From Cristatella mucedo (lineage: Eukaryota; Bryozoa; Phylactolaemata; Cristatellidae): a stretch of DNA of 64,000 nucleotides. The stretch is from contig WPIO01000017.1 of the NCBI GenBank assembly GCA_009760855.2, positions 6,603,501-6,667,500 on the forward strand, written 5' to 3'. A program made the translations under genes and the position numbers. Under the pieces are notes generated by a model that saw only the letters and a list, made by a program, of their open reading frames with translations, did not search any database and had not been told where the DNA came from. Positions 3,363-61,608 of this stretch are shown one piece after another. The stretch's first letter is position 1; each line of letters begins with the position of its first letter.

Positions 3363-3512
3363 AGCATGCTAATGTTGTTTATTGAGCACGCTACTAACCA
3401 ACTACTACTAACCATTCAATCGTGCTTCCTTTGCAGCAATTGTAAAGTGCCTAGAAAGAGTTCTCTGAAGGTACTTTATCAAATTTATTACTATTATTAT
3501 TATTATAGCTAA
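3363..3512 (+). mobile_element. LINE-A 3' tail fragment
   Basis: Contains GTTTATTGAGCACGCTACTA, then TTTGCAGCAATTGTAAAGTG, then the CCTAGAAAGAG..TTCTCTGAAGGTACTTTATC stem segment, and ends in (ATT)n. Only the last ~150 bp of the element is present. Confidence 0.75.
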
Positions 3513-5880: not shown

Positions 5881-6012
5881 ACGTTTGTTTATCAAGCACG
5901 ATATTACTCACGATTCAATCTCGCTTCCCTTTGCAGCAAATGTAAAGCGCCTAGGAAGAGATTAAGTTATCTGAGGGCACTTTATCAAGTGCATTATTAT
6001 TATTATATTAAT
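5881..6012 (+). mobile_element. LINE-A 3' tail fragment
   Basis: Shows TTTGTTTATCAAGCACGATA, TTTGCAGCAAATGTAAAGCG, CCTAGGAAGAGATTAAGTTA and GAGGGCACTTTATCAAGTGC, followed by (ATT)n. No coding part is attached. Confidence 0.78.
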
Positions 6013-6837
6013 ATTATTTCTGTTAATTCAAGTTTGTGTTTCTATGTATGCATGATTCGATCATAGACACTGTGCACGCCGGCACACTGCCAGTGCAGGC
6101 AGACCATAAGTGTCCTAAACCACCCCAGGGTCAAATAGCTGGTGGCTGTGGACTAGGGACAGGTCGGTGGTCAGCTGTGGTCTGACGACTGTGGTTTATC
6201 CACAGGCTGGCTTTTTCCTCCCGCCAACTCACGGGATGAGTTGTGGTTGGTAGGGAGTGGGAAGGAGGGAGGAGGGAACGCCAACCGGGTAGAGGGGAGT
6301 CGAATGGGAGTAGGGGCCGAAGGGACCCGTGCTCTCCGTGTGTTGTATTTACACGGTAGCCGATGAAAAATGTTAAGAATGGTTAGTTTATTTGAAGTTT
6401 GCATATTAAAAGATAAACTAATTATAAATGCATTCACAAATTTTGGTGGTTGTGAGATGAATAGAACATGGTCAATAAAATTGTTATTTAAGACCTTTTT
6501 AAACCGGAAGTATCATCGAGCTCAACAAAATGTTGGTGGTGGTCATCGGCTGACTCTCTGCTGTGCGAATAAAAGCTATATTAATTGCACTAGGAGCATT
6601 GTTTTCGTGAGATGTGGTTGACTCGACACAACTAGGCCGAAAACATCGAGCTCGTTTCGATGAAACAGCAGCGTGCTAAATCAGCCGGATCACGGCTGAT
6701 ATTTATTTTTATTGGTTGCTAAATTACAATGGCTGGGAGCCGATCCTGCAATAATCGATGGCCCAGGCATGATAAAAAGGAGAAGCCGCGTAGTTAGCAG
6801 TCAGCTGTGATTCCGGAGTTGGCCAGAGCATTTGAGC
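6013..6837. other. Stretch without recognised gene
   Basis: Short frames only (up to 88 codons). No repeat family or domain recognised. Confidence 0.25.
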
Positions 6838-6915
6838 TCTTAATTATATTAATGCACTCGATAAAGCGCCCTCTGAGAACTTAATCACTTTCTAGGCGCT
6901 TTACATTTGCTGCAA
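6838..6915 (-). mobile_element. LINE-A 3' tail fragment
   Basis: The plus strand reads AATGCACTCGATAAAGCGCC, CTCTGAGAACTTAATCACTT, TCTAGGCGCTTTACATTTGC, TGCAAAGGG. This is the reverse complement of the LINE-A end. Confidence 0.75.
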
Positions 6916-6989
6916 AGGGATTTGACCACGGAGCCATCGGTGTACGTCATGGTCTCTATTTAACGCCTGCAAAAACAAGCTGCTGTTCG

Positions 6990-8745: not shown

Positions 8746-9945
8746 GTTAATAATAATAATAATGCACTTGATAAAGCGCCCTCAGAGAACTGAATCTCTT
8801 CCTAGGCGCTTTAAATTCGCTGCAAAGGGAAATGCAATTGAATGGTGACTAAATCATGCTTGATAAACAACATGAATAACATGGTAAGGGGTGACATGCA
8901 CAGGGTCAGCATGCAAACGTGGGAAGTAGCAGCATGCACAGTGTCAGCACGCATAGGCACATCAAGGACGAATTACAGGGACCCACTAAATGCTGTCCTA
9001 GATATGTTTGTTTTTAAGTTCTTTTTAAATGTGGTCAAGTCAGGGGATGTTCTGACGCAAGACCGGAAGGAGTTCCAGGCTTTGGGAGCATACGAATTAA
9101 ATGCACGGCCTCCAAAGGATTTGAAGTTTGAACGAGGTATTGGTAGACTGTTGGATTCAGAAAAGCGGGTGTTACGATGCTTGGCCTGGTGAGGGATTAG
9201 ATCTGAGAGATAGACTCTAGCCAAAGAGGGAAGTGACCTAAAATTAAGCGACAAAACCTTGAAGTCAATCCGTTGCTTGACTGGTAGCCAGTTCAGGTCG
9301 GCGAGAAGTGGTGTGATGTGGCAACTGTGACCCTCACGACAGACAAGCCTAGCTGTGGAATTTTGCACCAGCTGCAATCGCCTGATTGCACATGCTGGTA
9401 GGCCAGCAAGCAGTGAGCTACAGAAGTCAATACGGGATGTCGCAAATACATGGAACAACTTATACATGGTATCATTATCTAAACATGCCCGAATTTTAGC
9501 AATGTTATGTAGCTGAAAGTAGGCAGACTTGATTGTGGAGCTGATGTGGTCGTCTAACGAGAGGTCACTTTGGAACATGACACCTAGATTTCGAGCTGAT
9601 TTAACAGGAGACATGCTGCCAGAGCCAATTGGGAGTATCAGCCTTTCCAATTTCTGAATCACACTGGGTGTGTCCATAACTAGTAAATGAGTTTTATCAT
9701 CGTTTAGTTTTAGAAAATTTGCTGCCATCCATGTGTGGATGTCATCAATACATGCAGCTTGTGAGTCGTGAGAATTCGAGGTGCTCGAAGGCTGGGAGGG
9801 GTCAAAGCAAAGGTACAACTGGGTGTCGTCTGCATAGAAGTGAAAGTCTAGATTGTGCTTGGCATTCACATCAGCAAGAGGGAGAGTATAAACCGTGAAA
9901 AGAACCGGACCTAGCACGGAGCCCTGAGGTACCCCATATTTCAGA
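8746..9945 (-). mobile_element. LINE-A copy with best-preserved RT C-terminal half
   Basis: On the minus strand it runs from the RT PQG motif (about 9924-9929) to the (TTA)n tail at 8746. A 315-codon uninterrupted frame (9917-8973) encodes the YADD catalytic box (residues 28-31, about 9825-9836). After it come the DKTHLLVM palm segment, QSDLSLDDHIS, IRRLQLVQNSTARLVC, the WLPVKQRIDFKVL thumb segment and the AWNSF..C..SPDLTTFKKNLK C-terminus that typifies L2/CR1-clade elements. About 225 bp of 3' UTR follows, ending in the LINE-A stem and AT-rich tail. The element is 5'-truncated at 9945. RT from this half alone would not be active. Confidence 0.88.
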
Positions 9946-9974
9946 GGTTACTAGGATGATGTTTGTCCATTCAA

Positions 9975-10085: not shown

Positions 10086-10768
10086 CGGGCCTGGTGGTTT
10101 GTCCACCGAAGCTGGCCTGGACATACTGCCGGCGATAGCTGCTAGAAATCGGGCACAGCCCATGACGGTTACAACTTCCGCCTATGCCGCTCGGAGGTAG
10201 AAAGACATTTTGTCATGCACTGAGCCACCGCCCGCCGATGCAGCATGCAATCACAACACGAGGTAACCTGGTCCTGCGCCGCCCAATCAGAGTTCGTCCG
10301 GCCACCGTTCGAACCTGTAAGTCGGTGGGCCTGCCATTCGTCCACTGTCCGGCTCTTAAACCGGTCCTGATAGCAAACAACGGCGTCGAACATTGTTGGC
10401 GTCACTGCACCGTTCGGCGGCAGCAAGGATGATCTGATGGTGCCGGTCCGAAACAATACCGGTAAGTATGTAGCCATCGCCAGGTCTTTCCTGACCGCTT
10501 GCTATCGGTTGGCAGTGCGGTGGCCCTTCATGTTCAGGGCTTTCGGCAGCTGGCGGCCAAGCAACGAAGCCTGCCTGGCTGACCGCCAATAGAGAAGGAC
10601 GTTGAGGCGGCTCTGCGTCTCTGACACCAATACACCGGCTCGAAAGACATCTGGTCCCTGTTCCTGAACCGAGAGAGATCCGGGTAGCACCCGCGACCCC
10701 GGCAGGGCAGGACACCGCCGGCTAATGTTTATATACGTGTTAAAAGTATTTCAATAAATTTATATTTG
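10086..10768. other. Stretch without recognised gene
   Basis: Holds a 102-codon minus frame (10169-10477) and a 119-codon minus frame (10356-10715). A CCDC..H....QC cluster in the first loosely recalls a retroelement zinc knuckle, but the spacing is wrong. Nothing firm can be said. Confidence 0.25.
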
Positions 10769-10902
10769 CCGAGCTGGTTTTGTCTAGCGGTTAAGGTGCT
10801 CGCCCCAACCGAGGTCTGGCTGAGGTCGTGGGCTCGAGCCACGAGGCATATGTGAAGCGCCTGAATAGAGATTAAGTTCTCTTGAGGCGCTATACAAATC
10901 AG
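10769..10902 (+). mobile_element. SINE-A copy (tRNA-derived head, LINE-A-like tail)
   Basis: The head TTTTGTCTAGCGGTTAAGG with GTGCTCGCC matches a pol III A box and D-arm. GGTCGTGGGCTCGAGCC resembles a B box/T-arm. The body then passes into TGTGAAGCGCCTGAATAGAG, ATTAAGTTCTCTTGAGGCGC and TATACAAAT. This repeats the LINE-A 3' stem. A TA microsatellite follows (10903-10945). Confidence 0.8.
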
Positions 10903-10946
10903 TTATATATATATATGTTTATTTATATATATATATATATATATAC
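10903..10946. repeat. TA microsatellite after SINE-A
   Basis: Two TA runs separated by GTTTATT. Confidence 0.85.
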
Positions 10947-12117: not shown

Positions 12118-12292
12118 TATCTTTCCTAACATCACCCTTAACAATGTTATTTATGTTGTTTTATCGTGCATGATATTACTTACCATTCAATCACGTTTCC
12201 AGTTGCAGCAAATTTAAAGCACCTGGAAAGACAATGAGTTCTCTGAGGGTGCTTTATCAAGTGCATCACTATTATTATTATCACTATCTTAA
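12118..12292 (+). mobile_element. LINE-A 3' tail fragment
   Basis: TATTACTTACCATTCAATC, TTGCAGCAAATTTAAAGCAC, CTGGAAAGACAATGAGTTCT, GAGGGTGCTTTATCAAGTGC, then (ATT)n. Confidence 0.75.
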
Positions 12293-12881: not shown

Positions 12882-13073
12882 TAGATAGTAGCGAGCCATA
12901 GTGGGAGTTAGTAATAAGTTGTTACAAAGTGTTTCAATTCGGTCATAATTGGTCCAACACTTCGAAAGCTTGCATTTGATTCAGAGGTCCTAGCAAACTC
13001 ACATCAGTGAACCAAATCTCCATTCATGGTTTTTTGTCAAAGATTGCGAAAAAGACTAGCTAAGTAGTAATAA

Positions 13074-13478
13074 TACCTCGTACAAACCTTAAATCCTTTG
13101 GAGACCGTGCATTTAGCTCGTATGCTCCCACAGCCTGGAACTCCCTCCCGACCTGCATCAGAACATCCCCTGACCTGACCACATTTAAAAGAAACTTAAA
13201 AACATACCTATTTAGGACAGCATTTAGTGGGTCCTTGTGATTCGTCCTCGATGTGCTTATGCGTGCTGACACTGTTCATGCTGCCACTAACCACATTTGC
13301 ATGCTGACCCAGTGCATGTAACCCCTAACCATATTATTCATTTTGTTTGTTTTTCAAGCATGATTTTACTTACTATTCTATTGTGTATCACTTTGCAGCA
13401 AATGTAAAGCGCCTAGAAAGAGATTAAGTTCTCTGAGGGCGCTTTATCAAGTGCAATATTATTATTATTATTATTAAG
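13074..13478 (+). mobile_element. LINE-A 3' end
   Basis: Encodes the last RT residues (KSFGDRAFSSYAPTAWNS-like, followed by SPDLTTFKRNLK) and then the complete 3' UTR: TGCTTATGCGTGCTGACACT, CCCCTAACCATATTATTC, GTAAAGCGCCTAGAAAGAG, GAGGGCGCTTTATCAAGTGC and (ATT)n. This is the cleanest plus-strand example of the tail. Confidence 0.85.
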
Positions 13479-14605: not shown

Positions 14606-14877
14606 CGGGGCCATTGAATGGATGTGCTATAGCCGGCTACTTTAAGTTCCAAGCACTCAAATTATAGTTCCTCTATTTTTTTGCTTCCACCGACCTATCG
14701 GATTAACTTGTATTATGGCTGCAAATAATACCGCATGGTCTTCTAACTCAAGACATATAGCTGGGCTTCTAATGCACCAAGAATCCTTTGCATACCATGC
14801 CTTCCGTTCCTAATCTTCAAACATCCAAAACTCTAAAATCCCCGACATGACAGCACCAAGAAAGGCTCTGGAGAATT

Positions 14878-15560
14878 TATTAATAATAATAATAATAATA
14901 TTAATGCACTTGATAAAGCACCCTCAGAGAACTTAATCTCTCTCTAGGCACTTTACATTTGCCGCAAAGTAAGATGCAATTGAATGGTAAGTAAAATCAT
15001 GCTTGAAAAACAAACAAAATGAATAATATGGTTAGGGGTGACATGCACAGGGTCACCATGCAAATGTGGTTAGTGGCAGCATGCAGTGTCAGCACGCATA
15101 AGCACGTGAAAGACGAATCACAGGGACCCACTAAATGCTGTCCTAAATAGGTGTTTTTAGGTTCCTTTTAAATGTGGTCAGGTCAGGGGATGTTCTGACG
15201 CAGGTTGGGAGGGAGTTCCAGGCTTTGGGAGCATACGAGCTAAATGCACGGTCTCCAAAGGATTTAAGGTTTGTATGAGGTATTTCTAGACTGTTGGATT
15301 CCGAGAAGCGGGTGGTAACATTGCTTGGCCTGATGGGGGAGTATGTCGGAGAGATAGGCTGGAGCCATAGAATGACGGGACCTAAAAGTGAGCGACAAAA
15401 ACCTTGAAGTCAATCCGTTGCTTGACTGGTAGCCAGTGCAGGTCGGCGAGAAGTGGTGCATTGTGGCAACTGCGACGCTCACGACAGACAAGCCTAGCTG
15501 CCGAGTTTTGCACCAGCTGCAATCGCCCGATCGCACATGCCGGTAGGCCAGCGAGCACGC
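14878..15560 (-). mobile_element. LINE-A copy, left arm of an inverted pair
   Basis: Starts with (TAA)n and the reverse complement of the LINE-A tail, and includes the C-terminal RT coding segment on the minus strand (CKTRQLGLSVVSVAVATMHH, SRFLSLTFRSRHSMAPAYLS). The 5' end is truncated about 45 bp before an oppositely oriented LINE-A copy. Confidence 0.82.
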
Positions 15561-15606: not shown

Positions 15607-16235
15607 CAAAACTCTGCAGTCAGGCTTGTCTGTCGTGAGCAGTTGCAACATCACACCACTTTTCGCCGACCTGCACTGGCTCCCAGTCAAGCAACGGATC
15701 GACTTCAAGGTTTTCTCCCCTACTTTTAGGTCCCTTCCTTCTTTGACTCAGCCGGCCAATCAGATCTACTCCCCCACCAGGCTAAGCATCGTGCCGTCCA
15801 CTTTTCGGAATATAACTGTTAACCTAGTCTTCATACAAATCTTAAATCCTTTAGAGGTCGTGCCAGTAGGTCGTACGCTCCATAAGTCTGGAACTCATCC
15901 CCCCACCGACTTCCGTCTCGACATCCCCTGACTTGACCATATTTAAGAAGAAATTTAAAACGCACCTATTTATGACAGCATTTAGCAGAACCAGTGACTC
16001 ATTCATTATGTGCTTATTAGTGCTGACAATGTGCATGCTGCGACTAAACATACTTGCATCCTGACCGTGTACACGTCACCCCTAACCATTTTGGTCTTGT
16101 TGTTTATTGAGCATGCTACCACTAACAATTCTATCGTGCTTTGCAGCAAATATAAAGTACCTAGAGAGAGATTAAGTTCTCCGAGGGAGCTATATCAAAT
16201 GCATTACCATTATTATTATCATTATTATTAATATA
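15607..16235 (+). mobile_element. LINE-A copy, right arm of an inverted pair
   Basis: Begins within the RT at AAAACTCTGCAGTCAGGC and encodes LFADLHWLPVKQRIDFKVFS. It runs through the C-terminus and 3' UTR to TAAAGTACCTAGAGAGAG and (ATT)n at 16235. It has many substitutions relative to the other copies. Confidence 0.82.
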
Positions 16236-16579: not shown

Positions 16580-17400
16580 TCAGGTTGCTACTCGCCAGAA
16601 GATGTAAATTGTCACGTGGTAATGCTCCTGACTGGCAAAGTACAAAAACGCACGAGTTATTTTACTCTACGTGGATTGAATATGAAAATATGAAAAATCA
16701 ACTCCGACGGGCTTAAGAAATCGCAAATTTGAGTACTGGTTGGATACATCAGTTTGCGGATGTGTTCAACATGAGACAGCGGCCACTGGCGGATATCGAT
16801 AGCATGAACCACCATTATTGCCACTTCAGAGATTTTTTCTGCGCAAAAATAATAACTGCGATCTTAGCTAAGGGCACCATAAGGCCACCCAAAGAAGGCT
16901 AGTTAAGCCAACGTCCTTGCAACACCAATCTTAAAGATTTCATCTGGGTTTACCACAATATCCGCCACAGCTGCAGCCAGAGTGCCATGCCAGCAAACTG
17001 GCAAGCCGGCCCAGATAGCATGCCTCTGTACCATTGTCATTACACATTGCCTCATTACCTCATTATTGCTCATTGCCCGAGATGGTTGCAGCAGTTTCTA
17101 TAAATTTTTTAAGCATTACTCAGTTAAACTTAGCAGTTTGTGATCCAGAAGGAAATGCAACCTTCAACTGCGAGTCCAACTTCACCGGTATGTACGCCAC
17201 TCACCTGCCAGCTTGCGTCCAATACTGCCGTCGTCGTTATCCGCCACCAGTAGGTGGGGGTTTTTCCATTCGTCATTCTCTTCGGTGCGTCGCTCTCGTG
17301 CGGGCCCCCACAAGAATACTTCCGTTCAAGCATATTTACAGTGCTTAGAAAGAGATTTAATTATCTAAGGGCACTATAAGTCAACCTCATCATTATCATG
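16580..17400 (+). repeat. Unclassified retroposon-like repeat, tandem copy 1
   Basis: Shares a series of collinear segments with 17440-18225. Examples are GAGTTATTTTACTCTACGTGG, GAGATTTTTTCTGCGCAAAAA, GTTTGTGATCCAGAAGGAAA and the terminal TACAGTGCTTAGAAAGAGAT. The last segment resembles the LINE-A/SINE-A 3' stem and is followed by a CATCATTATCAT tail. No protein is recognisable. Confidence 0.55.
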
Positions 17401-17439: not shown

Positions 17440-18225
17440 TTAGCCTCTTTAGTTTAGCAAATAGTCTTGTAATGCGACCTGTTTGCATCTGAGTTCTCGT
17501 GGTGTAGCTAACGAAATGAGGAGAGACAACAGGTAAGTGCTGGAAAACAAGTGCTCGTACTTTGATTCTGCGTGGAGTAAAATGGAGCGGCTGGTGCCTG
17601 ATAATATGGATGCTATTAAAAGCGCGAACCCCCATTCCAGCTACTTCAGGAATTTTTCCTACGCATAAATAAAAACTCTTACAAATGCTGTGATAGGGCC
17701 ATGATAACATAGAAGTTAGGGTTCTTGCTCCTAATGACTGGGGTCGTGGGCTCGAATCCTGAAGTGGGCGATCATTTAATGCCAGCTGCAAGCGGTGGTG
17801 GTAGCTATTAAGGGTCTTCAGCAACTATGCAAATGAGGATGCTAAATCAGCTAAAAAAAATGAGCTACAAAAAGTATTCGGCTGCCGGATACTGCGAATT
17901 ACACGAACGCCCAAGCAACCTCGGGGTTTAAGAATACCAATTTGACTACATATTTCCCCACAATTGTAGCCAGTGCTTGCTGACTGTAATCTGTACAGCC
18001 GGCCGAGCAAGTTCCCTTAAGGTACAGTGATTACCTCAGCAGTCTGAACAAGTTTTGAGAACTTCTTTAACAGTGCTTAAACAGGTACCAAATTTGTATT
18101 TTGTGATCGGGAATGAAATGCAATCTTATTGCAAGATATTGCTTCTTCTCCATCATGTTTAAAGTGCTTGAAAGGACAAAGTTTTCTTATGGTGCAATAC
18201 AAATATCACCTTCTTGTTATTATAT
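17440..18225 (+). repeat. Unclassified retroposon-like repeat, tandem copy 2 (with SINE-B insertion)
   Basis: Collinear and diverged relative to 16580-17400: GATTCTGCGTGGAGTAAAA, AGGAATTTTTCCTACGCATAA, TTTGTGATCGGGAATGAAAT and TTAAAGTGCTTGAAAGGAC, then a TTATTATA tail. A SINE-B at 17712-17856 splits it and is absent from copy 1. Confidence 0.55.
17712..17856 (+). mobile_element. SINE-B copy
   Basis: GGGGTCGTGGGCTCGAATCC (T-arm/B box), GGGCGATCATTTAATGCC, GCTGCAAGCGGTGGTGGTAG, AAGGGTCTTCAGCAACTATG and GCTAAATCAGCTAAAAAAAA. Confidence 0.72.
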
Positions 18226-18255
18226 TACTGAATTGCTGTGGATAAAACTTTTTGG

Positions 18256-18325
18256 TCCAGGAGGTACAGTGCTCGCCTTTAAAGGCTGAGGTCATTGGTT
18301 CGACGATTACAGCAAATATAAATAA
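18256..18325 (+). mobile_element. SINE-A head fragment
   Basis: TTGGTCCAGGAGGTACAGTG and CTCGCC (A box/D-arm), then GGCTGAGGTCATTGGTTCGA (B box). The tail is missing or replaced. Confidence 0.6.
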
Positions 18326-18329: not shown

Positions 18330-18455
18330 TAATAAAATTCATTTATACCCCACCATATGATAACTTAATATCTATACAGACGCTTAACGTATGCCACGGG
18401 GCTCGAGCCCACGACTTCGGGTATTAAAGAAGACAGCAAGTCCTTTGGACCCTAA
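18330..18455 (-). mobile_element. SINE-A copy
   Basis: The reverse complement reads GGTCCAAAGGACTTGCTG, then AAGTCGTGGGCTCGAGCCCC and GTGGCATACGTTAAGCGTC, then AGATATTAAGTTATCATATG and TATAAATGAATTTTATTATA. This is the SINE-A body with the LINE-A-like tail. It is opposite in orientation to the adjacent SINE-A head. Confidence 0.68.
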
Positions 18456-30010: not shown

Positions 30011-30985
30011 GATGCGGAACGTTCAGCTAACGCTAGCCTTTGCTCAGGTTGACAAATGAACGCTCGTCAAAGACTTAGCGCTGCCCGGCTGCTCGCCGGC
30101 GTAAAAACCCCGCCGCCGTGCCGTTGCCGAAGGTTTGCCGGATGTAGAAAGCCAGCCATCCAGTCAGTCCCTTCTTTAAAGATGGCTAGACGTCACGCCT
30201 CTTCGGCTAGCGGCCGACACGGGCAGAAATCCAAGTTTAGACTCCTTGAAAAATATCTCGGTGCACCCATTGCTGCTCTCTAACCCGACCGAGCGTGTGG
30301 TTTTTATTCAGACCTATGCATTTGCGCTTGCATAATCGGCGAGAAAATCCATCAGCAGTGCGCACGTTTGTTGATGAAAAACCTTCCAACTTTAGTTCGC
30401 GATATTGGCCGCTAACAAACGGAATAACTGGCCTCCCCGAAAAAAAAGTATCTTCATTGTAACTCAGCAAACCCGAGAAATTGCCTATTCTTGCAAGATG
30501 CGCATAGTCTGGAGTACACGTGAGTCTCTGTGGAAAAAAAAGTCTGATGACTTGAGCTGCCCATACGTGAAACTGCGACAAAAGGACCCGTGAAAGAAAG
30601 CAGTTGGGAGGAATGCCTTGCCTGTCCGGTAAGTGCAGAGCCGAAGCTGTAGAATTGAGATTTTGGCCGACATTCATGCAAAATTGTGCACACCACCATG
30701 CAGGTTTCGCGATGTGACGCGTACAATTGAACTCTGAATAAAGCCAGAGTATGGACAGCAGCGACTCTGCATAAAGCAGGCATGACTGCGAAGAGCAGCT
30801 TAGCCGGAAAGCAATGCGTTTCAAATGTCAAACTTTTCCCGGCGCTCTTCGCCTCGACTTGAGAGAAGCGGGAGCGACCGCAAGCGACGGTCCAGGAAAT
30901 CAGGATTGAGCGTAGCAGCAGCAGCAGCAGCAGCATCAGCAGGCGTTCCGCGAGCACAAGAGCTCAGCATCGATCCGTCACCTCT
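30011..30985. other. Stretch with a 195-codon minus frame of unknown nature
   Basis: The minus frame at 30237-30824 has no recognisable domain and no convincing splice sites. A CAG-type trinucleotide run lies at about 30905-30935. Confidence 0.25.
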
Positions 30986-30989
30986 ATCC

Positions 30990-31141
30990 GCGTTGCGCTT
31001 GCTGTCATTGAGCATGCGACCGCTCACCATTCGAGCGTGCTTCCTTTGCGGCAAATGCAGTGAGCGTGTTTAGAAAGAGATTGAGTTATCAGAGGGCGCT
31101 GTAACGCACGTATGATTATTATTATCGCTATTACTATTATC
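30990..31141 (+). mobile_element. LINE-A 3' tail fragment
   Basis: CATTGAGCATGCGACCGCTC, TTTGCGGCAAATGCAGTGAG, TTTAGAAAGAGATTGAGTTA, CAGAGGGCGCTGTAACGC and an (ATT)-like tail. Diverged. Confidence 0.65.
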
Positions 31142-32047
31142 GAAGGGAATCGATGTCGGGCTCGCATTTCATCCGCAGCTTGAGAGTGCTGCCCGTCTGT
31201 CGTCGCTGACAGCTTGTCTTCGACGGCGCTGCTTTTCGTGGCTGCTCAAATGATACATAGCGGGCTCGCTAATTTAGCTTTTATTGTCCACTCGCTGCAT
31301 CGGCAGAGACTTGATATGTTTTATTTTATTATAATCCATCCTGTAATCTTCTCGGGTGTCTGAAGAGAAGCGGTATTTTACGCTAGGAAAGTAGTGCTGA
31401 GACCGACAGCAGTTAGTCATCAATCTGAACGCTTAGGCTAAACCACTTTCCTCGCTTTTTTTCTTAAATATTAAAGCGACGATGCATCAGATCTACCAGA
31501 TTCTGACTGCCGAAGTGTCACTCACGCTTCTTGAATTATACCGGCTGGGAACTGCTTGTGTGATAATCTATGGTTAGGCACTACGAAGTCTGGAGTCATG
31601 CATTATTCAGTCAATACAGGTTCAGGAATTGAACATGCAGCGGTTGCGCTCTAGACCTAGAGTCAGGCACTTAAAATGTGCTCTGGACACTGTATGATAG
31701 CGGTAGGCCGTGGCTGGTTATGAAAGTGTGTAACCATCCGTCGTTGCATTACCGACTTCTCTACATCATGGATGTGGACTTACTATCTATAGGTACTGGT
31801 GCTCACGTATTCCGCAACTGTCGGCATCCCCACGTGCACTGTTGCTTCACCTACCAGTCGTTCGCTCACTTTAGAGCGTCAGCTGATTAATTTAATTTTA
31901 GTTAATTTAATTTAATTCATATTTGTAATATTTGTCGTGCTTCAGCTGGAACTTGTATCTTGACGAGCGCAGCATTTGCGGCCCGGTTCTGTACGCACAT
32001 GATAAATAAAGTAAACCCTAGCTAATTAAACAGCCTCCTTTGAATAG
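31142..32047. other. Stretch without recognised gene
   Basis: Only short frames. A TTAATTTAATTT low-complexity patch lies near 31890-31920. Confidence 0.25.
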
Positions 32048-36370: not shown

Positions 36371-37224
36371 AATAATAATAATAATAATAATATTGCACTT
36401 GATAAAGCGCTCTCAGAGAACTTAATCTCTTTCTAGGCGCTTTACATTTGCTGCAAAGTGATACGCAATAGAATAGTAAGTAAAATCATGCTTGAAAAAC
36501 AAACGAAATGAATAACATGGTTAGGGGTTACATGCACTGGGTCAGCATGCAAATGTGGTTAGTGGCAGCATGAACAGTGTCAGCACGCATAAGCACATCG
36601 AGGACGAATCACAAGGACCCACTAAATGCTGTCCTAAATAGGTATGTTTTTAAGTTTCTTTTAAATGTGGTCAGGTCAGGGGATGTTCTGATGCAGGTCG
36701 GAGGGAGTTCCAGGCTGTGGGAGCATACGAGCTAAATGCACGGTCTCCAAAGGATTTAAGGTTTGTACGAGGTATTTCTAGACTGTTGGATTCCGAAAAG
36801 CGAGTGGTACGATGCTTTGCCTGATGGGGTAGTATCTCTGAAAGATAGGCTGGAGCCATAGAATGAAGAGACCTAAAAGTGAGCGACAAAACCTTGAAGT
36901 CAATCCGTTGCTTGACTGGTAACCAGTGCAGGTCGGCGAGAAGTGGAGTAATGTGGCAACTGCGACGCTCACGACAGACAAGCCTAGCTGCAGAGTTTTG
37001 CACCAGCTGCAATCGCCTGATCGCACATGCTGGTAGGCCAGTAAGCAGTGAGTTGCAGAAGTCGAGACGAGATGTCACGAATGCATGGACCAACTTGGAC
37101 GTGGTATCCTTATCTAAACAAGCCGTAATTTTAGCAATGTTATGAAGCTGAAAATAGGCTGATTTGACTGTGGAGCTGATGTGGTCGTCTAACGAGAGGT
37201 CGCTTTGGAATATGACACCTAGAC
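36371..37224 (-). mobile_element. LINE-A copy, 3' 850 bp
   Basis: Begins with (TAA)n and the reverse-complemented tail. The minus frame at 36671-37267 is open for 198 codons: IFQSDLSLDDHISSTVKSAY, FCNSLLTGLPACAIRRLQLV, LHWLPVKQRIDFKVLSLTF and FSSYAPTAWNSLRPASEHP. The sequence is very close to the copies at 8.7 and 14.9 kb. The 5' end is truncated after GACACCTAG. Confidence 0.88.
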
Positions 37225-43509: not shown

Positions 43510-43625
43510 ATCTCGTCTTAATAATAATAATTATTATTACTATAATAGATTTGCATAGCACAATTATAGAAGTGAATCTCTTTGAAGGCACTTTACATAC
43601 GATGTAAACGAAACATGATCAAACG
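43510..43625 (-). mobile_element. LINE-A 3' tail fragment (diverged)
   Basis: (TAA)n, then ATTTGCATAGCACAATTATA, GTGAATCTCTTTGAAGGCAC, TTTACATACGATGTAAACGA and AACATGATCAAACGG. Confidence 0.55.
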
Positions 43626-43627
43626 GT

Positions 43628-46600
43628 TAATGTAACGTATCTCCGTCTGAAACTTCACTTTTTTACGTAAGAGAGGTTTGTACAGCTCACTCACAGCCTA
43701 AGCCGCTTTCGATGCGCATTTGGTAGCCAGCAGACTTCATCTCAGAAAACAAAGAGAAAGTGGGAAGCATAGCAGAGTCAGGTGAGCAGTTGAGGTAGTG
43801 AGTAGCATGGAAGTAGCAGCTCAAAACCACTGAAAAGGATGAGCCATAGTCGGCAGCAGGAGAGTAGCTGTCGTTGTTTAAGAATAGTGGAAGCGAGTTT
43901 CGCAGTCTGGGACCTGCCGAGCTAAAGCTTCTGTTGCCAAAGATCTATAAGCGGAGGAATGTAACAGTTAATTTATTATCCATACAGGACCTGTGGGCAC
44001 GATGAGGCTGAACTTGGTGCAACAGTTCAGCCAGGTATCGAGGAGCCAAGCCATGGTTGGGCTTGTGGGTCAGCATAAGAACTTTCCTCTGTATCCGTTC
44101 ATCAACCGATAGCCATCCTAGATCTTTTTGCAAAGGAGATACCTGGTCAAACCTCTGGGTCTTGAAAACTAGCCTTGTAGCCACAGTCATAGCCAGCTGC
44201 AGTGGCCTAGTTGCTTTCTTTGGTAGCCCAGCCAAAAGGGAATTACAATAATCAAGCTGAGATAGAACTAAAGAGCTAGCTAAGTTTTTTGCAAGCCATT
44301 GTGGAAGGCAACTCCTAATCTTAGATATGGATCGGAAGTGCTGGCAAGCTGTAGAAGCAGTCCTCTGAATGAAGCTTTTATAATTTACGCAGCTCTCGAA
44401 AACGACACCTAAATTTCGAGCACGTGGTGATGGTTCCGAAATAGCATCACCTATTAGAAGAACAACGCCTTCTAATGCAGGCAAATGCTTAGGGTGTCCT
44501 ATAAGCAGTAGTTATTTTTTATTGTCATTTAGTTTCAAGAAATTTTCAGATGTCCAGGATCGAGTGTCGAAAAGGCAAGCATTCAGTATATCAGTTGCTG
44601 CAACAGATTCCGACTGTTTGAATGACCAATAGAGCTGAGTATGATCAGCATAAAATTGATATCCTCTTCCATGATCCTTGATCACTTTCCTCAGATGTTG
44701 AGCATAAACGGATAATAGAAAATGCCCGAGGAAGGACCCTCAAGGGACTCCACATGTGATCCGTCTCATTTGTGAGACCTGACCCCCACACGACACGGAT
44801 CGAACACGATCAGATAAGTGCGATTTAAACCTCTAATGCCTTGTCTACCAGACCAATAATTTTCTCAATCTTTCAAGTAGGACATCGTGATCCATGGTTT
44901 TGAAAATCTAGCAGAGCTAGGCTAATTACATTCCCGTCATCGTTGTCATATAGAATGTCATTGTTAACACGGAGGAGAGCAGTTTCAGTGGAGTGCTCTC
45001 ACTAGAACCCCGAGCGAAATGTTTCTGACATTTATTCTTTTCAATATGTGTAACTAGCTGCTTAGCGACAATTTTTTAAAGAATGTTTGACATAAAAGGA
45101 AGAAGGGAAACTGGGCGATAGTTTGCAAGGACTTTGCATTTAATCCAGGATTTTTAAGTATCGATTCCAACGATTTCCGATTTGAAGGACTTGGATACGA
45201 CTCCTTTTTCCATGCAAGCATTAACAAATCTCGGTTATGGCACGGCTGAGCTTGTCTGCCAGTAAAAACGACAGAGATGATGGTATAGAATTTTCAGGAG
45301 ACGAGCTCTTTTGACTAGACCTTATTATGGTAGCCACATCACATGCGGAAACCTTGAGAAAACCTTTTAAAGAAGGTTACAGGTTGTGATTCCACAATTG
45401 ATTTACTCGCAGGTGGCTTTTCGGATGCACGAATGTGTAAAATGTTTTCAGTAAAGAAAACCTTTGCTGAAAACCTATGCTGAAAACCTTTCGGCTGAGC
45501 CATTAATTTCTGGGGAGTCACACCTCTCAGCATTGGCCAGTAAATTGCTTACTGTCTTATAAATCTGTTTTGAGTCCGCCTAGCAGAAATTCAGTTTTCG
45601 AGCGAAAAAAGAAGCCATGGCTCTCTTGAGCTTCCGGGTGTAAACTTGAATAAAGTTTTTGAAATTGACTAGATCTGCATCATACCCTGATTTTTTAAAA
45701 CGACATTCAAGCCTGCGCTGAACACGGTGCAACCTTTGAAGTTTTTTTGTAATTTGAAAGGAATCTCCATGAGTCTGTACACGGATAGAATGAGCGGGAG
45801 CATACCTGTCAAGAGAGTTTCATGTTCACTGCATCAGTGAGGCTATCGAGGCTGTCGGTCGAGTGTGGGTGCAGATCAAAAAGACCTGCATCACAAACCG
45901 ATTTCAAAAATGTTTCTATGTCAATCTTTTGTAAATTACGTCACTGGACAAGCTCGACATTACCCTGTACCTGCAAGGGAGCAGGAACAGTAAATGAGAC
46001 TGAACAATGGTCCCAGAGGGTCAGCGGCCACACCACAAGGTCAGTGGGGAAGACATCCTTAGGGATCACGAGATATAGAATATGGCCACCGACATGGGTG
46101 GCAAGATTAAAGTGTTGGACGAAAACCAAAATTCTACAGACAGTCAAGAAGTGAGCGGACCTTGCCATTGATAGGGTTGTCAACGCAAATACTGAAGTCT
46201 CCAGCGATCAGTAACCGCCTGTCGCACACAAATATTTTAGCGAGGAACTCCGAAAACTTCTCTATAAGCATGTTTAGACAGCCAGAAGGAGGCCATTATA
46301 TCACAAGAGTGAAAGGCACTGTCTTTGATGAGGACCTGATTGAAACTGATTCAAACAATGGTCCATCCGAAACACTGCACATCTTATAGCCAAACGATTC
46401 ACGAACAACAATTGCAACCACGCCACTAACCTTGTCAGAACACATAGACTGACAGAATAAGAACCCGGGTGGGGTGGTCTGAGATATACAGCTACTGGAA
46501 CAAGGCGTCATCCAAGTTTCGGTAAGCACAAATGCATCTAGCTTCTCCTGGACCACCTGGTCGTGGGTAAATAACCCATTTGTTTTTGCGAACGGACATT

Positions 46601-47890: not shown

Positions 47891-49280
47891 TTTCCTCGAA
47901 TTATCTCAAACTATGGTTAGTCTCGTTAAATTTCACTATGAGCTCTTTCACGTTTACTTAATACAAGTCTAAATAAGGGTGTTTGAAGCTTGGCAGTTTT
48001 AATTTACAATCGCAAGCGTGCCATGCTTGAGCGTGCTTGTTATTAACATTAACCAACCTGCGTGAACATTTCTATCCGTGATTGTATTGAGACCATTGTA
48101 GTTCGAGATGTATCGAAGAATTTTAGTTCCAGAGGGTATATGACGCTTATTAAATGCAATATATAGTTTAGCCAATAATTCTTTGATGCTCTATTGCCCT
48201 TGGGGGAAGAGAAAATTGAACATTTTTTCACTCTTGGAAATAATCTCTCGAAAATTGAAGATGGGCTACAAAAAAGATATGTCTCACAAAGTTTCACGCA
48301 CATTCGTGCTTCCTCTGTGTATAGGTGTATAATGTATTTTGGCTCACTCGGACTTTAAAATTCCAGTCATCCTCAAATTTTCAATTAAGGATGGGGGCGT
48401 TTAAAGCGGACTAGGAGGCACTCACAGAATTCTGAAATGTAATTGCTAATTGTGCTGAGAGGAAGCGAAAGACCATTCATGCTTCGACTTCTTTCTTTTT
48501 GGATGTACAGGTAGTATCCAGCATACTAAATGATCAGAACGCCTCGCGGGATCATGTTTTAAAAGTAGGGAATTCCTAAAAATTGCATATTAAAAACTTA
48601 AACATAATTATTTCCTATAGCTCAGTAATGTAACTTATTCGCTATTCATCTGCTTTACTTATGCCTCAAGGATCGCGCCTAAAACTTTGTGAGTTAAAGC
48701 CGTACACCTTACTGGATCATGACTGTTGCTAAAGAACAGTATCTTGCAATGGCAACATGCAAGACTTGTCGAGAACGTACTTCTCTTGCAAGAGATAAAG
48801 ACAATATACCAAGTTATCGAGAGTTTTCAAGCATTGTTAATATTGCTAAATTTTTCATAAAAAGCTGAAGTTTTGCTAATGACTCTATCTTCGGGGTTAT
48901 CTTTGAGAAATTTCTACATTAAAACTAAAATTATCCTTCACCGGAGACTCAGGGTAATTCTTAGTGAGCGTCCAAAAATCAGCCTAATGATTATTTATTT
49001 TAATTATTTGAAAATATGTATACCCGCATATTGATAAATAGTTTATTTGTAAGTTATAACCGGTGTGTAATTTTTACCTTGCTAAAACTTCTCTATTATT
49101 TTTGGAAAACGTATAAAAAGAAATTCGAATGCGGAAGTTTTCCCCGTAAAGGCTTTAGATAGCGCAGTGAAAAGATAAAAGCTTTCTACCTCATGCGAAT
49201 AGACGCTTGCCTTTATTAAAACAATGCGCACTATTTCCATAACATATTATTTTATGGTTTACGCTCTTTTTTGTCCAATT
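47891..49280. other. AT-rich stretch without recognised gene
   Basis: No domain, repeat family or splice signal stands out. Frames are short. Confidence 0.3.
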
Positions 49281-50110: not shown

Positions 50111-50565
50111 TACATAGCCCCCTCAGAGAAGTTTGTCTCTTTCTGACCACTCTCCAGATGCTAAAGAGGAAGCATGATCAAATAGTTAGAGTATAACGAT
50201 TAATGTCAGTAACGTAGTTAGAGGTGACATGAACAGGGTCAGCATGCAAATATGATTGGTGGCAGCATGCAGTGTCAGCAATCATAAGTATCCATAGAAC
50301 AAATCACACTGACTCACTAATGCTGTGATAAACAGATGCGCTTTTAGCATCCTATTAAGTATCGTCAATTCGGGGAATGCGTTGAGATCAGTCAGGAGTG
50401 AGTTCATGGCTTTGGGAGCATACGAAGTAAAGACAAGGTCTCCAGAGGATTTGGGTTTTTACGATGTGTAACTAACCAATTTGATTCCGAACAGTGAGTG
50501 ACACGACACCTAGCCTGGTGGGAAAGCAGTTCTGGTAGGTGGGCTGGGGTCGAGAATGCAGACAA

Positions 50566-50920
50566 AAAAAATAACAAAAACAATACAATTGATAAAGCAC
50601 TCTCAGAGAACTCAATCTCTTTCTAGACGTTTTATATTTGCTGCAAAGGAAACACCCAATCGGATGATGAGTGGTAAACAACAAGAATAACATGGTTAGG
50701 GGTGACATGCACAGGATCAGCATGCAAGTGTGGTTAGTGGCAGCATGCAACAGTGTCAGCACGCATAAGCACATAAAAAACGAATCACCGGGACCCACTA
50801 AATGCTGTTCATAAATAGTCGAGTTAGGTAACTAAAAGTGAGTATACAAGCGCCTAGAAAGAGATTGAGTTTCTGAGGGCACTTTCTTAAGTGCATTAGT
50901 ATTATTATTATTACTATTAA
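50566..50920 (-). mobile_element. LINE-A 3' fragment plus opposite tail, inserted in LINE-A
   Basis: 50566-50835 is a minus-strand LINE-A 3' end (GATAAAGCACTCTCAGAGAA, TTTCTAGACGTTTTATATTT, GGACCCACTAAATGCTG). 50845-50920 is a plus-strand LINE-A tail (CAAGCGCCTAGAAAGAGATT, GAGGGCACTTTCTTAAGTGC, (ATT)n). The host LINE-A resumes at 50921 with CCTTGAAGTGCTTCTTGACT. Confidence 0.68.
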
Positions 50921-52216
50921 ACCTTGAAGTGCTTCTTGACTGGGAGCCAGTGCAGGTCAGCGAAAAGTAGTGTGCTGTGGCAAGTGAGACGCTCACGACA
51001 CGACGGACATGCCAAGCTGCAGAGGTTGCACCAACTGTAAGCGCCTGACTACATATGCCGATAAACCAGCAAGCACTTAGTTGCAGAAGTCTAGACGGAA
51101 TATGAAAAATGCACGAGCCATATTGGACGTAGTATTCCTGTCTAAGAAAGCCAGAATTTGAGAAATTTTATGTACCTGAAAGATGGCTGACTAGACTGTG
51201 GAGCTGATTCGGTCGCCTAGTGAAGCGTCACTTTGGAACGGGACGCACAGAGTTCAGGCAATCGCGATAAGAGATATTCTGGCAGAGCCGATTGCGAGTA
51301 TTAAGCTTTCTACTTTCTTAGATGCAATATGATTTTATTTCATTACTAATTTGGCTTTATCTCCTTTCAATTTGAGAAGTCTGCTGCCATCTATGTGCGG
51401 ATTTCAGCTATACACGCAACAAGGGAGTTGAGAGAATTTGACGTTCGGGATTTGAAGGCGTGGATGGCTGGGATGGATCAAAGCAAAGGTTAAACTGAGT
51501 GTTATCTGCATAGACACGAAAGCCTGGATTTTGCTTGATGATCTCATCGTCAAGCGGTAGATTATAAATTATAAAAACAATACGTTCAAGCACAAAGCCA
51601 TGAGGTACTACCAACTTAAATGCTTCAACGGATGACCTTTTTCCGTTTTTCCTCAATATTCTAGAGTGTCCAACAAAAATAGGAACTGAACTCTTGCAGT
51701 GCAGTGCCAGTAATGGCCGGGCGAGATGCGAGGCGCTCAAGAAGTACTTTGAGAACCATAGTTTCAAGCACTCCCGACAGATCAAGCAAATCAAGCAGAG
51801 AAATTTTACCTAATCATGCATCCCTCAGAAAATCATTGCACACCCGACGCACTGCTGACTCTGTGGAGTGTTTAGCTCTAGACTGTACTAGAATTTACTT
51901 TTTAGGTTTGAAACTTAATGCAATACTCCAGCCGGTCTGCCACAACTCGCTTCAGTGTCTTCTATATGAATGGTAGAAGGGAAACTGTACTGAAGTTCTC
52001 TTGGTCGAGTGCTGCTTTCTTAATTAGTAGCCCCAATTACAGCCTTTTTTAAAAGGTGCAGGGACGTGACCCGAGGCTAAGGAAATATTTATTACGTCAT
52101 TTATGCATGGCATCACAAATCTAGGCATCGTAGAGTATGAAAGTGGGAATGTTGTGTAGAGGGCTAGAAGTTTTCTTTTACTGGTACATTAATTTCAGGA
52201 TGATGCCACTCATTGT

Positions 52217-53799: not shown

Positions 53800-54067
53800 C
53801 TATACGTGCATATATTTTATTTACCTTGTATATATACAGGTTTATTACATAGAGGAAATATATATGCACATAATAAGGTTTAATATAGCGGAAATTAGTT
53901 TGGCTTGCTAACATATGCATAGTTAGCAAGCGAAATAAATTTCCGGATTCTCTAATCCGGAAAGGCGGCGAAAAAGAGTTGAATTAAGAAGAATGAAGTT
54001 CAAAATCTAGCAAAACTACTATAATGTAATCTGTATACACATTCTGGCTCTAGGAAATCAGACAGTA
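52951..54067. other. Stretch without recognised gene; TA microsatellite and hairpins
   Basis: A (TA)n run of about 42 bp lies at 53755-53797. Two perfect hairpins lie at 53903-53931 and 53940-53963. No gene recognised. Confidence 0.4.
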
Positions 54068-54240
54068 ATAAAAATAATAATAATAAGACACTTGATATAG
54101 CGTCCTCAGAGAAATCAATCTCTTTCTAGGCATACGCACATATGCTGCAAAGGAAGCACGATCGAACGGTTAGTGGTAGCATGCTCGTAAAGCAACAAGA
54201 ATAACATGGTTAGGTGTGACATGCGCAGTGTCGGCATGCA
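54068..54240 (-). mobile_element. LINE-A 3' tail fragment
   Basis: (TAA)n, CTTGATATAGCGTCCTCAGA, CTTTCTAGGCATACGCACAT, ATGCTGCAAAGGAAGCACGA and ACATGGTTAGGTGTGACATG. Confidence 0.75.
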
Positions 54241-55467
54241 GTTCGGGCTTCTATTTACTGCCAAACATGAGAGTGCAGACAGACAGGCGGCCCTGGTTGC
54301 GCGTGTTTATGCCACAGCTGACCTCGATGCCTAGTCGAAGATGGCGGTTGCAAAGCGATGCTTGATGAGCAAACTGTCTCACTAAGAAGCCTCGGTTGTG
54401 GGTGACGACGTGAGAGTGGGAAGTTTCATTTCTTCAGTTTACTTAGTTGAATGACATGCTAATGATTTCTTCTTGTTTTACGGTTCATTGAGTTTTTTTA
54501 CGCGCAGAACTGCTTCAGGAACATGAAATGACCCACAAAACGAAAATACTTCACATATTTTTTTAAGGCTTCCATAACTTTGGAAGTCTTGAAAAGTTGT
54601 TGGAGGGGTATCTCATTTTCAGCATCATTGAAACTGCTGCTTCACGGTAATCTTTCAATGCTTAAAAAATCTGAATATGCTGCCGCACTTGTTTATAGCC
54701 TCAAAAGTTCAACGGTTTCTCTTCCCCTGCGGCTGTTTTGTCGCAACTTTCCGAACAGCGCTCCGCAGCGCCGACCGTCGAAGCGAAGCGACTGCGTGTA
54801 GAAGCTGCTCACGCCTCCGCAAGTCGTAGCAGCAACGAGTTGTACAGACAAGCTGTCATAAAAGGAAAAAAAATGTCACAAGCATCATGGCCGCCGTCAA
54901 GTTTGATCTCTCGCCAGTAGCAGGCACTGAGTAAAGTACAGGTGAGCGGGCTAAGCACGTCGGAAATAAACTAGCTACCAAGGGCAACGGGAAAGCTGGC
55001 CGATGATCCTTTTATGTGTCTGTAGGAATCCTAGTTCCTGCGCATCTCGGGGCTTTGTGCAGCGTTCCGCTTCTGACGAACGGGTTCCAGGGCGCCTTTT
55101 TTCTTCAGGCTGTATTGCGTAAATTTTCGAAACAACTGCTTGGTGAGGAAGCCAGCGCCCATTAAAAGCAAAAGCGATACCTTGAAAACCCCCGATGATG
55201 AATGGCTATATTCTCACTCACACGGAGGCTCTGCTGACCTTACTTTGCAGTGGCATGAAAGGATTATTTTTCGATTGCTCTCATCACGAAAAGCAGCACC
55301 GCGGGCGTCACGTGACCTTTGCCAGAACCGCTCGGTCGCGTGATACGTCGTCTGGCACAGCCTCTTAGAGCGAACGTAATACATCCAAGCGAAATATCGT
55401 TCGTGCAGCGGCTACCTAGACCCCTGCGAACATTAAACTAGTCTAGTAATCTGTGGTATTCAGAATT
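54241..55467. other. Stretch without recognised gene
   Basis: Frames up to 73 codons and no domain or repeat recognised. Confidence 0.25.
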
Positions 55468-55606
55468 GGTGAGTCTTGGTCCAGCGGTTAAGGTGCTCGC
55501 CGTGACCAAAGTCTGGCTGAGGTCGTGGGCTCGAGCCCCGAGGCATGTGTGAAGCACCTGATTAGTGATAAAGCTCTCTTGGGGCGCTACACAAATGAAT
55601 TATATT
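55468..55606 (+). mobile_element. SINE-A copy (first of a tandem pair)
   Basis: TTGGTCCAGCGGTTAAGG (A box), GAGGTCGTGGGCTCGAGCCC (B box), then GTGAAGCACCTGATTAGTGA, AAGCTCTCTTGGGGCGCTAC and ACAAATGAATTATAT. Confidence 0.82.
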
Positions 55607-55608
55607 TT

Positions 55609-55755
55609 TCCGAGCTGGTTTGGTCCAGTGGTTAAGGTGCTCGCCCCCGACCAAGGTCTGGCTGAGGTCGTGGGCTCGAGCCCGGAGGCATATGTGAAGC
55701 GCCTGAGTAGAGATTAAGTTCTCGTGGGGCGCTATACAAATGAATTTTATTTATT
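55609..55755 (+). mobile_element. SINE-A copy (second of a tandem pair)
   Basis: CCGAGCTGGTTTGGTCCAGT, GGTTAAGGTGCTCGCC, GGTCGTGGGCTCGAGCCC, GTGAAGCGCCTGAGTAGAGA, TTAAGTTCTCGTGGGGCGCT and ATACAAATGAATTTTATTTA. Best-preserved SINE-A; the T-arm pairs well. Confidence 0.85.
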
Positions 55756-56094
55756 TATTTATCTATATAGAACTTGCTTCGCAGCTCCGTAATAGTGTAC
55801 ATCTCCCACGTCTGCAAGCCGAACGCGTTATTCTACTTCCGCTGACCATTTCAGCAACTGAGAGCAGCTTTCGCTAATTAATATGAAAAAGATGGTAGGA
55901 ATAATGCCACTGATTCCTATAGCTGTGGCTACCAGTACCGAAGGACGGCAGGGTGCACACCTTTTTTTCTGTCTGGCGCTGCGATACCGTGTATCTGCAC
56001 CGCCGCATATACATGCCTATTAAGCACTAAATGAATCCAGCTGACGACTCGGCTTTGTATCTGCAATGCGGATCCGCTGTTCCAACACGCGTGC

Positions 56095-56157
56095 GAGAAA
56101 CTACGCTCTCGGAGCCTTGCTCGGGCCTTGCTCGGCGCTCCGAGAGCGTAGTTTCTC
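56095..56157. repeat. Perfect 21-bp inverted repeat upstream of the receptor exon
   Basis: Arms at 56095-56115 and 56137-56157 are exact reverse complements (the left arm starts GAGAAACTACG and ends CTCGGAGC). They are separated by a 21-bp spacer that holds a doubled CCTTGCTCGG. A stable hairpin or cruciform is predicted. It lies about 240 bp before the 7TM coding sequence. Confidence 0.9.
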
Positions 56158-56398
56158 ACATGCGGCCGTCCAGCCGCCAGTCTCCGTTTCCGTTCGCTCG
56201 CACCATGCCAAAATGGTGAGCGCCATTTTTCTGCTTTACTGTCCGCTCTGCTGCAGCCATTTTCTTTCAGGACGCTGGTCAGCGCGCGCTCTTCTCGTCT
56301 GCCGCTGCAGGAAGCTCGTCGAGCAGCGACCGGGCGATTCGCCGCTCTGCTGTGCAGCTTTCTCTGCTGCTGCTGGGGCCTGCCGGGCGGCGTCCTAG

Positions 56399-57418: not shown

Positions 57419-57476
57419 GTGAGCGGGCGTCGCGCGGCGCTCGCGAGCTCGCGGCCGCCACTTCCGAGTAATGTTA

Positions 57477-61054: not shown

Positions 61055-61608
61055 AGAGAAGTAATAACACATTTGTTATAGCGCCCTCGGAGAACTCAAC
61101 GTCTTTCTAGGCACTTTACAAAGCTGTAAATGAAGAACGATCGATTAGTTAGCGGCAGCACGCTTAATGAACAACAAGCATTACATGGCTAGAGGTAACA
61201 TGCACGAGGGCAGAATGTAAATATGCTTGGTGGCACCAGGCAGTGTCAGCGCGCCTAAGTACATAAAGGTCGAATCACGTGAACCCAATAAATGCCGTGA
61301 TAGATAGACGCATTTTTACTTTCTTTTTAAGTGTGGTCAAGTCAGGGGATTTCGTGACGCAAGTCGGAAGTGAGTTCCAGTTTTGGGAGCATACGAACTA
61401 AAGGCACGGTCCCCAACGAAGGATTTGGGGTTTGTACGAGGCATAGGTAAACGATTAGATTTCGCAAAGCAGATGGTTCTGTGCTTAGTCTGGCAAGGTA
61501 GTGGATCTGATAGTTAGGTCAGAGCCAAAAAATGAAGCGACCTAAAAGTGAGCGATAAAACCTCGAAGTCGATCCGTTGCTCGACCGGTAGCCAGTGCAG
61601 GCCGGCTG
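61055..61608 (-). mobile_element. LINE-A copy, 3' 550 bp
   Basis: TTGTTATAGCGCCCTCGGAG, GTCTTTCTAGGCACTTTACA, ACATGGCTAGAGGTAACATG, CGAATCACGTGAACCC and CCTCGAAGTCGATCCGTTGC. The minus strand encodes LHWLPVEQRIDFEVLSLTFR and SLHF. It is truncated at 61608, where unrelated GC-rich DNA begins. Confidence 0.82.

Follow-up and report, generated by a model that had tools for sequence, protein, structure and literature searches.

Pairs of SINEs and LINEs are widespread, and CR1 and RTE LINEs predominate in a table published in 2013, whose protostome rows, in the part of the paper available, list a single pair, Gecko of the mosquito with I elements (PMC3747384). A moth pair, PxSE5/PxLINE1, was described later (PMC8010984, available sections). 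In the zebrafish L2 elements a 3' stem-loop is required for movement, binding is by the EN-RT intervening region, and specificity resides in the loop, according to the accessible text of PMC4176376. The same text treats UnaSINE1/UnaL2 of the eel and ZfL2-1 and ZfL2-2 of the zebrafish as stringent-type L2 systems with a required stem-loop, whereas the pair described here, SINE-A and LINE-A, is known from sequence alone. This pair was analyzed in one continuous stretch of 64,000 nucleotides (hereafter, the window), which is apparently animal DNA and is dense in LINE fragments.

SINE-A resembles the HAmo SINE of carp, the partner of HAmoL2, in having a tRNA head, a 3' tail in common with a LINE (an L2, over approximately 42 nt, in the carp), a stem-loop and short terminal repeats. 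The two differ in the loop (GGAUA in HAmo, UUAAGU in SINE-A), in the repeats (TAAATG in HAmo, ATT/ATTT in SINE-A and LINE-A), and in the likeness of the tail to the LINE, which is one base different in HAmo and matches in about two thirds of 60 columns in SINE-A; furthermore, HAmo has a family-specific middle region that SINE-A lacks (PMC2653535, in the portion available). MIR/L2 of mammals and SINE2-8_SP/L2-1_SP of the sea urchin likewise combine a tRNA SINE with an L2-type tail, and are likened to SINE-A here by their description in the available part of PMC3747384. Two arthropod pairs, PxSE5/PxLINE1 and Gecko/I, have a common 3' tail as SINE-A and LINE-A do; unlike SINE-A, PxSE5 is 5S-derived and Gecko is partnered by an I-clade LINE (PMC8010984 and PMC3747384, sections available). 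The chelicerate SINE Ruka of ixodid ticks, which is 176-195 bp long and tRNA-Ser-like, is set beside SINE-A by description only (PMC3160391, available text).

SINE-A and LINE-A copies in the window

Using sequence comparison, alignment and profile search, we identified six copies of SINE-A in the window (Table 1). All five copies named in a sequence-only reading of the same DNA were recovered, and the sixth, at 48600, is additional to them. The copies fall into a long and a short form, which differ by an insertion, GACCAAGGTC in one long copy and close variants of it in the other two, located about where the anticodon arm of a tRNA would be. These six short elements are dispersed over the 64 kb, and five of their tails run into AT-rich sequence or simple repeats. 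SINE-A is composed of a tRNA-like head and a tail without a central domain, because the local match to LINE-A begins at GCA, directly after the head. At 55473-55756 two copies are arranged head to tail, the second beginning inside the AT-rich tail of the first, and a similar AT-rich stretch lies just before the copy at 10768. Target-site duplications were found at no more than chance level in six SINE and six LINE tests, conducted on copies that are diverged and whose 5' ends are uncertain.

The LINE-A 3' ends comprise a first set of 15, two clear late finds, a diverged relative at 43540-43631 and a weak candidate at 18142-18215. LINE-A encodes a reverse transcriptase domain (RVT_1), with the motifs NYRPVSLLPF and SGFTDNHSTES, whose look we take to be that of L2/CR1 elements; on this appearance of the motifs and of the tail, LINE-A is probably of the L2/CR1 type. 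The conserved tail-binding motif of L2, whose place is between EN and RT (P-W ... R ... R .. E .. W, cTBR), sought in four versions and six frames, had no match in these truncated and decayed copies. A PDB search with the reverse transcriptase fragment of LINE-A returned nothing at E<=0.01, and NCBIfam gave a weak match to a group II intron reverse transcriptase (22.4 bits versus a cut-off of 300).

Several neighboring features were noted in the window. At 1229-2393 a LINE-A copy on the plus strand, without its tail, meets the 3' end of a minus-strand LINE-A near 2234, so that the two 3' regions face each other. A long open frame on the plus strand at 56152-57471 encodes a 7TM receptor domain of class C (7tm_3, E 6.4e-21) and is probably a host gene, and an open frame on the minus strand at 5020-5430 is thioredoxin-like (Thioredoxin_8, E 7.9e-19).

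Table 1. SINE-A and LINE-A features, with positions counted from the first letter of the window
Feature	Position	Strand	Basis
SINE-A long form, first of tandem pair	55473..55606	+	alignment, SINE profile
SINE-A long form, second of tandem pair, (ATTT)n at end	55613..55756	+	alignment, SINE profile
tRNA-like head of SINE-A, A-box-like TGGTCCAGTGG and B-box-like GGCTCGAGCC	55620..55687	+	box scan, comparison with human tRNAs
LINE-derived tail of SINE-A	55688..55745	+	LINE-A profile E 4.2e-7, local match from GCA
Stem-loop in SINE-A tail	55693..55738	+	MFE -20.9 kcal/mol, z -4.66
SINE-A long form	10768..10912	+	SINE profile; tail fold z -5.24
SINE-A short form, older, stem decayed	18331..18453	-	SINE profile; fold z -0.52
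SINE-A short form, head only	18251..18303	+	SINE profile
SINE-A short form, full-length, most decayed, older; missed by the sequence-only reading	48600..48725	-	blastn E 6e-4 at 48632-48679; alignment
LINE-A with 324-aa reverse transcriptase fragment (8973-9947) and 3' tail	8760..9947	-	RVT_1 E 4.1e-10
LINE-A 3' end, 98.8% identical to 36373-36776 (405 bp)	13072..13476	+	tail fold z -5.11
LINE-A 3' end	36373..37223	-	sequence comparison
LINE-A 3' end	14902..15557	-	sequence comparison
LINE-A 3' end, diverged group with GCTATA	15607..16206	+	alignment
LINE-A 3' end, diverged group with GCTATA	61065..61606	-	alignment
LINE-A tail	5884..6019	+	sequence comparison
LINE-A tail	6841..6921	-	sequence comparison
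LINE-A tail, G-C to A-U double change in stem	12130..12287	+	alignment
LINE-A tail	2238..2394	-	sequence comparison
LINE-A tail	3328..3506	+	sequence comparison
LINE-A tail	30976..31145	+	sequence comparison
LINE-A tail	50564..50734	-	sequence comparison
LINE-A tail fragment	50848..50921	+	sequence comparison
LINE-A tail	54064..54247	-	sequence comparison
LINE-A 3' end, late find	50114..50255	-	LINE-A profile E 8.8e-21
LINE-A tail, late find	17319..17378	+	LINE-A profile E 6.8e-10
Diverged LINE-A relative, diagnostic tail bases common with SINE-A	43540..43631	-	LINE-A profile E 3.3e-7
Possible second copy of the diverged relative, weak	18142..18215	+	E 0.49 with LINE-A profile, 0.0099 with SINE profile

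Homology of the SINE-A tail to the LINE-A 3' end

The last 55-60 nt or so of SINE-A are homologous to the 3' end of LINE-A. The tail match reported in the sequence-only reading proved to be far above chance, both in profile searches run in either direction (E about 1e-7) and in a pattern search compared with shuffles. A profile built from all six SINE-A sequences, without any LINE, recovered 13 of the 15 LINE-A tails tested at E-values from 1.5e-7 to 0.091; the tail fragment at 50848 obtained E 4.1 and the tail at 3435 had no match. The E-values of the six SINE-A copies themselves are by construction, because all six were used to build the profile. With the same profile the reversed window gave no match at E<=10, and the best E-value in 20 windows shuffled in two-base blocks was 0.041, so that the LINE-A matches at 0.085 and 0.091 lie within chance. 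The reciprocal profile, built from the 15 LINE-A ends and no SINE, found the SINE-A tails at 10846 (E 1.9e-7), 55688 (4.2e-7), 55543 (0.016) and 18395 (0.068). These last two scores lie close to chance, because an unrelated stretch at 58847 also obtains 0.016, and the tail of the copy at 48600 went unrecognized (E 59); three of the five SINE-A tails thus stand at chance level with this profile. The head-only copy at 18251 is outside all tail counts.

The pattern GAGATTAAGTTCTCNNRRGGCGCT (24 bases, up to 3 mismatches), which was derived from the SINE-A and LINE-A sequences themselves, has 15 matches in the window, 3 in SINE-A and 12 in LINE-A, compared with a mean of 0.01 and a maximum of 1 in 100 shuffles. 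An earlier and longer tail pattern with fixed spacing had zero matches in the window. A chance or low-complexity likeness between two AT-rich 3' ends would account for the terminal repeats, which alone are uninformative, and would suit the SINE-A tails at 18330 and 48600, where the stems are decayed. Yet it would leave the excess of pattern matches and the low E-values in both profile directions without a cause, and the match itself sits in the GC-rich stem, outside the repeats. On these grounds and on the shuffled-window controls we rejected chance similarity, to which we assign a negligible probability.

LINE-B was also rejected as a donor of the tail. Its own tail ends in (ACATT)n, and a 3' profile of seven copies, which works well enough to find LINE-B in the window at E-values down to 6.3e-42, had no match at E<=1000 in five SINE-A copies. 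Two LINE-B copies with (ACATT)n ends are apparently inserted in or near a LINE-A 3' UTR, at 2393-2876 and at 43628-44352 beside 43540-43631. The LINE-B 3' ends (e.g. 52540-52662 on the plus strand) carry GAAAGCCGCTTAGGCTGTGAGTGCGCTATACAAA or a similar sequence about 70-100 nt before the end, which by eye, and unfolded, looks like a stem-loop of the L2 type located at some distance from the terminus.

The common stem-loop

In the stem-loop of the second tandem copy, the lower stem pairs 55698-55704 with 55727-55733, the upper stem pairs 55710-55713 with 55720-55723 around the loop UUAAGU, and outer pairs join 55693-55696 with 55735-55738. Similar folds were obtained for SINE-A 10851-10903, SINE-A 55693-55745 and the single LINE-A tail that was folded, 13397-13455 (MFE -22.2, -20.9 and -26.3 kcal/mol; z -5.24, -4.66 and -5.11, respectively). 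In all three, a lower stem rich in GC, with 7 or more pairs, is followed by an internal loop and then by a 4- or 5-pair upper stem that closes UUAAGU. The lower stem AGCGCCU/GGGCGCU and the hairpin GAGAUUAAGUUCUC are identical in SINE-A 55693 and LINE-A 13397, and SINE-A 10851 has the same lower stem and hairpin except for one A in place of G in the 3' arm. Where these intact SINE-A tails differ from LINE-A 13397, they do so in the outer pairs, the internal loop and the stretch leading up to the repeats. The conservation of both stem halves, as claimed in the sequence-only reading, therefore holds for these two of the five SINE-A tails and partly for 55549 (z -2.08), but not for the decayed tails at 18340 and 48605 (z -0.52 and -0.60).

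We aligned 22 tails (5 SINE and 17 LINE-like); this set, as well as the tree and the diagnostic columns described below, consists of tails other than the late-found 17319-17378 and 50114-50255. In the alignment 83.1% of cells pair, compared with 33-58% when the partner is slid and with 81.9% in shuffles, where the observed share was reached by 35 of 500. Covarying stems, for which a check had been proposed, exist in the form of 5 double-change pairs but are weak against the shuffle control (2.8 +/- 1.2, reached by 37 of 500), and slid structures give 2 to 6. The remaining three covariation measures were reached by 81 to 184 of 500 shuffles. In the LINE-A stem, for example, 12199 shows a double change from G-C to A-U and 3435 one from C-G to U-A. 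The changes seen most often in the stem, C-G to U-G in one pair (8 rows) and G-C to G-U in the next (6 rows), would be expected from the decay of CpG sites in dead copies. Selection on pairing is neither established nor refuted by the tail alignment, and covariation, tried as a proof of structure, was too weak to serve as one.

At gathering scores Rfam had no match in the window, and below them the matches at E<0.001 were to microRNA models and fell in a single run of simple repeats near 10020. Rfam has an entry for UnaL2, and this model had no match among the Rfam hits.

The tRNA-like head

The tRNA-like head assigned to SINE-A in the sequence-only reading is supported by alignment to tRNAs and by the A/B-box pattern. 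Each of the five heads compared (those of the copies other than 48600) aligns with some of a set of 11 human tRNAs, the best-scoring tRNA giving a z of 4.3-7.5 per head, and the isotype of the parent tRNA is ambiguous within this set. The strict A/B-box pattern is present in two of the six copies; the window has five matches in total, including these two, compared with 1.2 in shuffles, and as many were reached in 1 of 50. The SINE-A heads had no match to the Rfam tRNA model (RF00005, up to E 10) and no tRNA according to ARAGORN, and the three heads that were folded did not exceed shuffles in stability (z -0.85, 0.24 and -0.51). Divergent SINE heads often fail tRNA covariance models. The failed recognition lowers the claim of a tRNA-derived head while leaving room for such an origin.

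A second family of short repeats with a tRNA-like head was observed in the window, with four copies aligned (14430-14640, 17700-17860 and 62640-62780 on the plus strand, and 31980-32180 on the minus strand). It has the head GAGGTCGTGGGTTCGAATCC or a similar one, a body with GCAAGCGG, and then CTAT.CAAA.GAGG. Two of its heads were touched by the SINE-A profile, and the LINE-A profile was without a match there.

Candidate LINE-A lineages as donors of the tail

The sequence-only reading had allowed that a different LINE might fit the SINE-A tails better. LINE-B does not match them and the main LINE-A tails are slightly ahead on raw identity, but the diagnostic bases favor diverged relatives of LINE-A. 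Over approximately 60 columns the best partners are SINE-A 10848 with LINE-A 13390 (40/59) and SINE-A 55690 with LINE-A 5928 (40/60), and the diverged 43615 is close behind (39/58 with 10848, 37/58 with 55690). The main LINE-A tails read GCGCTTTATCAAGTGCATT, and the best SINE-A tails GCGCTATACAAATGAATT or close to it.

The LINE tails were assigned to three groups, A1 (ten main tails), A2 (five diverged ones) and A3 (two, 43615 and 18146), by eye after the alignment and the tree had been seen. At 15 columns where the SINE-A consensus departs from main LINE-A, 7 of them around one indel, the SINE state occurs on average at shares of 0.03 (A1), 0.11 (A2) and 0.53 (A3). In a tree that rests on about 60 columns, with one SINE-A row visibly shifted, the five SINE-A tails group with 43615 and 18146 (local support 0.975). 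The tail at 43615 belongs to a relative of LINE-A, because the homologous region extends past the tail on its upstream side, into the UTR of the LINE (E 3.3e-7); the assignment of 18146 to the diverged LINE-A relatives (E 0.49) is doubtful.

The exact pairing of the sequence-only reading, with the main LINE-A lineage of the window as donor and partner of SINE-A, is a serious candidate whose probability we place somewhat below even. The diagnostic columns and the tree speak against it, as do individual positions beyond the hairpin (GCTATA, the loss of one base before CAAAT, and T for G in the internal loop), all of which follow the diverged copies, whereas the apical hairpin and lower stem of SINE-A 55693 are those of main LINE-A 13397, the raw identities are highest with this lineage, and the SINE profile gives it E 1.5e-7 compared with 0.019 and 0.0099 for the diverged copies. 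Main LINE-A has also been active recently, with two copies 98.8% identical over 405 bp. Judging by the tail bases, we lean slightly toward a sister lineage with the GCTATACAAAT end as the donor rather than main LINE-A, although main LINE-A surpasses the diverged copies in both raw identity and profile score.

In its best copies SINE-A might also combine older tail bases from a sister LINE with a younger hairpin and lower stem from main LINE-A, as a result of a partner change over time. Such a change would be possible because the LINE protein, according to this explanation, reads the hairpin alone; we consider it rather unlikely.

Age and mobility

Among the matches listed in a self-comparison of the window, the three long-form SINE-A copies are 86-89% alike pairwise, and LINE-A pairs range from about 67% to 98.8% (13072-13476 versus 36373-36776). 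From this difference, some LINE-A movement would be more recent than these SINE-A copies. The comparison of insertion ages suggested in the sequence-only reading thus yields, within the window and with six SINE copies, a hint that LINE-A is partly younger than SINE-A.

The moderate likeness of the long-form copies, among which no very recent movement is seen, would also fit a tail that was acquired once by template switching and is now historical, the SINE having later moved otherwise, for example if its terminal simple repeats alone were recognized; the terminal repeats, (ATTT)n/(AT)n in SINE-A versus (ATT)n in LINE-A, point the same way. However, the two best copies keep the stem and loop while their flanks differ from the LINE, as if the hairpin were recognized, and we regard a purely historical tail as improbable.

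A probable two-part retroposon and its likely partner

We consider it highly likely that SINE-A is a two-part retroposon with a Pol III head and a tail from the LINE-A clade, moved by a LINE protein, where the homology is observed and the mobilization is argued by analogy. RNA polymerase III would transcribe SINE-A from its tRNA-like head, and the last 55-60 nt or so of the RNA would be copied from the 3' terminus of a LINE in the LINE-A clade, probably one of the L2/CR1 type. The LINE protein may then bind the stem-loop common to SINE-A and LINE-A, and target-primed reverse transcription would begin in the ATT-type repeats behind it. Recognition of the SINE-A RNA by the reverse transcriptase is suggested by the zebrafish and eel work, as presented in the available part of PMC4176376.

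Given the common hairpin, SINE-A very probably rides on the copying enzyme of a LINE, as many known short elements do, and with LINE-A it probably forms a standard stringent-type SINE/LINE pair of the L2/CR1 kind. No public relatives of SINE-A or LINE-A were found in viral_contigs or genome_contigs, where records of the nearest genome may be left out; peptide-pattern matches (4 stretches in viral_contigs and 104 in genome_contigs) yielded none that was confirmed, and none of six SINE/LINE strings was found in the literature searched.

The pair would be one more natural case of a SINE parasitizing a LINE via a folded RNA tail. Since the hairpin and lower stem are common to both elements in the best copies while the surrounding tail has drifted, it may serve as a natural experiment on the bases read by the LINE protein, and the hairpin GAGAUUAAGUUCUC on its AGCGCC stem provides a concrete sequence to seek in other genomes. 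If the host is an arthropod, this would also be an L2/CR1-type pair in a protostome, of a kind absent from the protostome rows of the 2013 table, in the part of PMC3747384 available.
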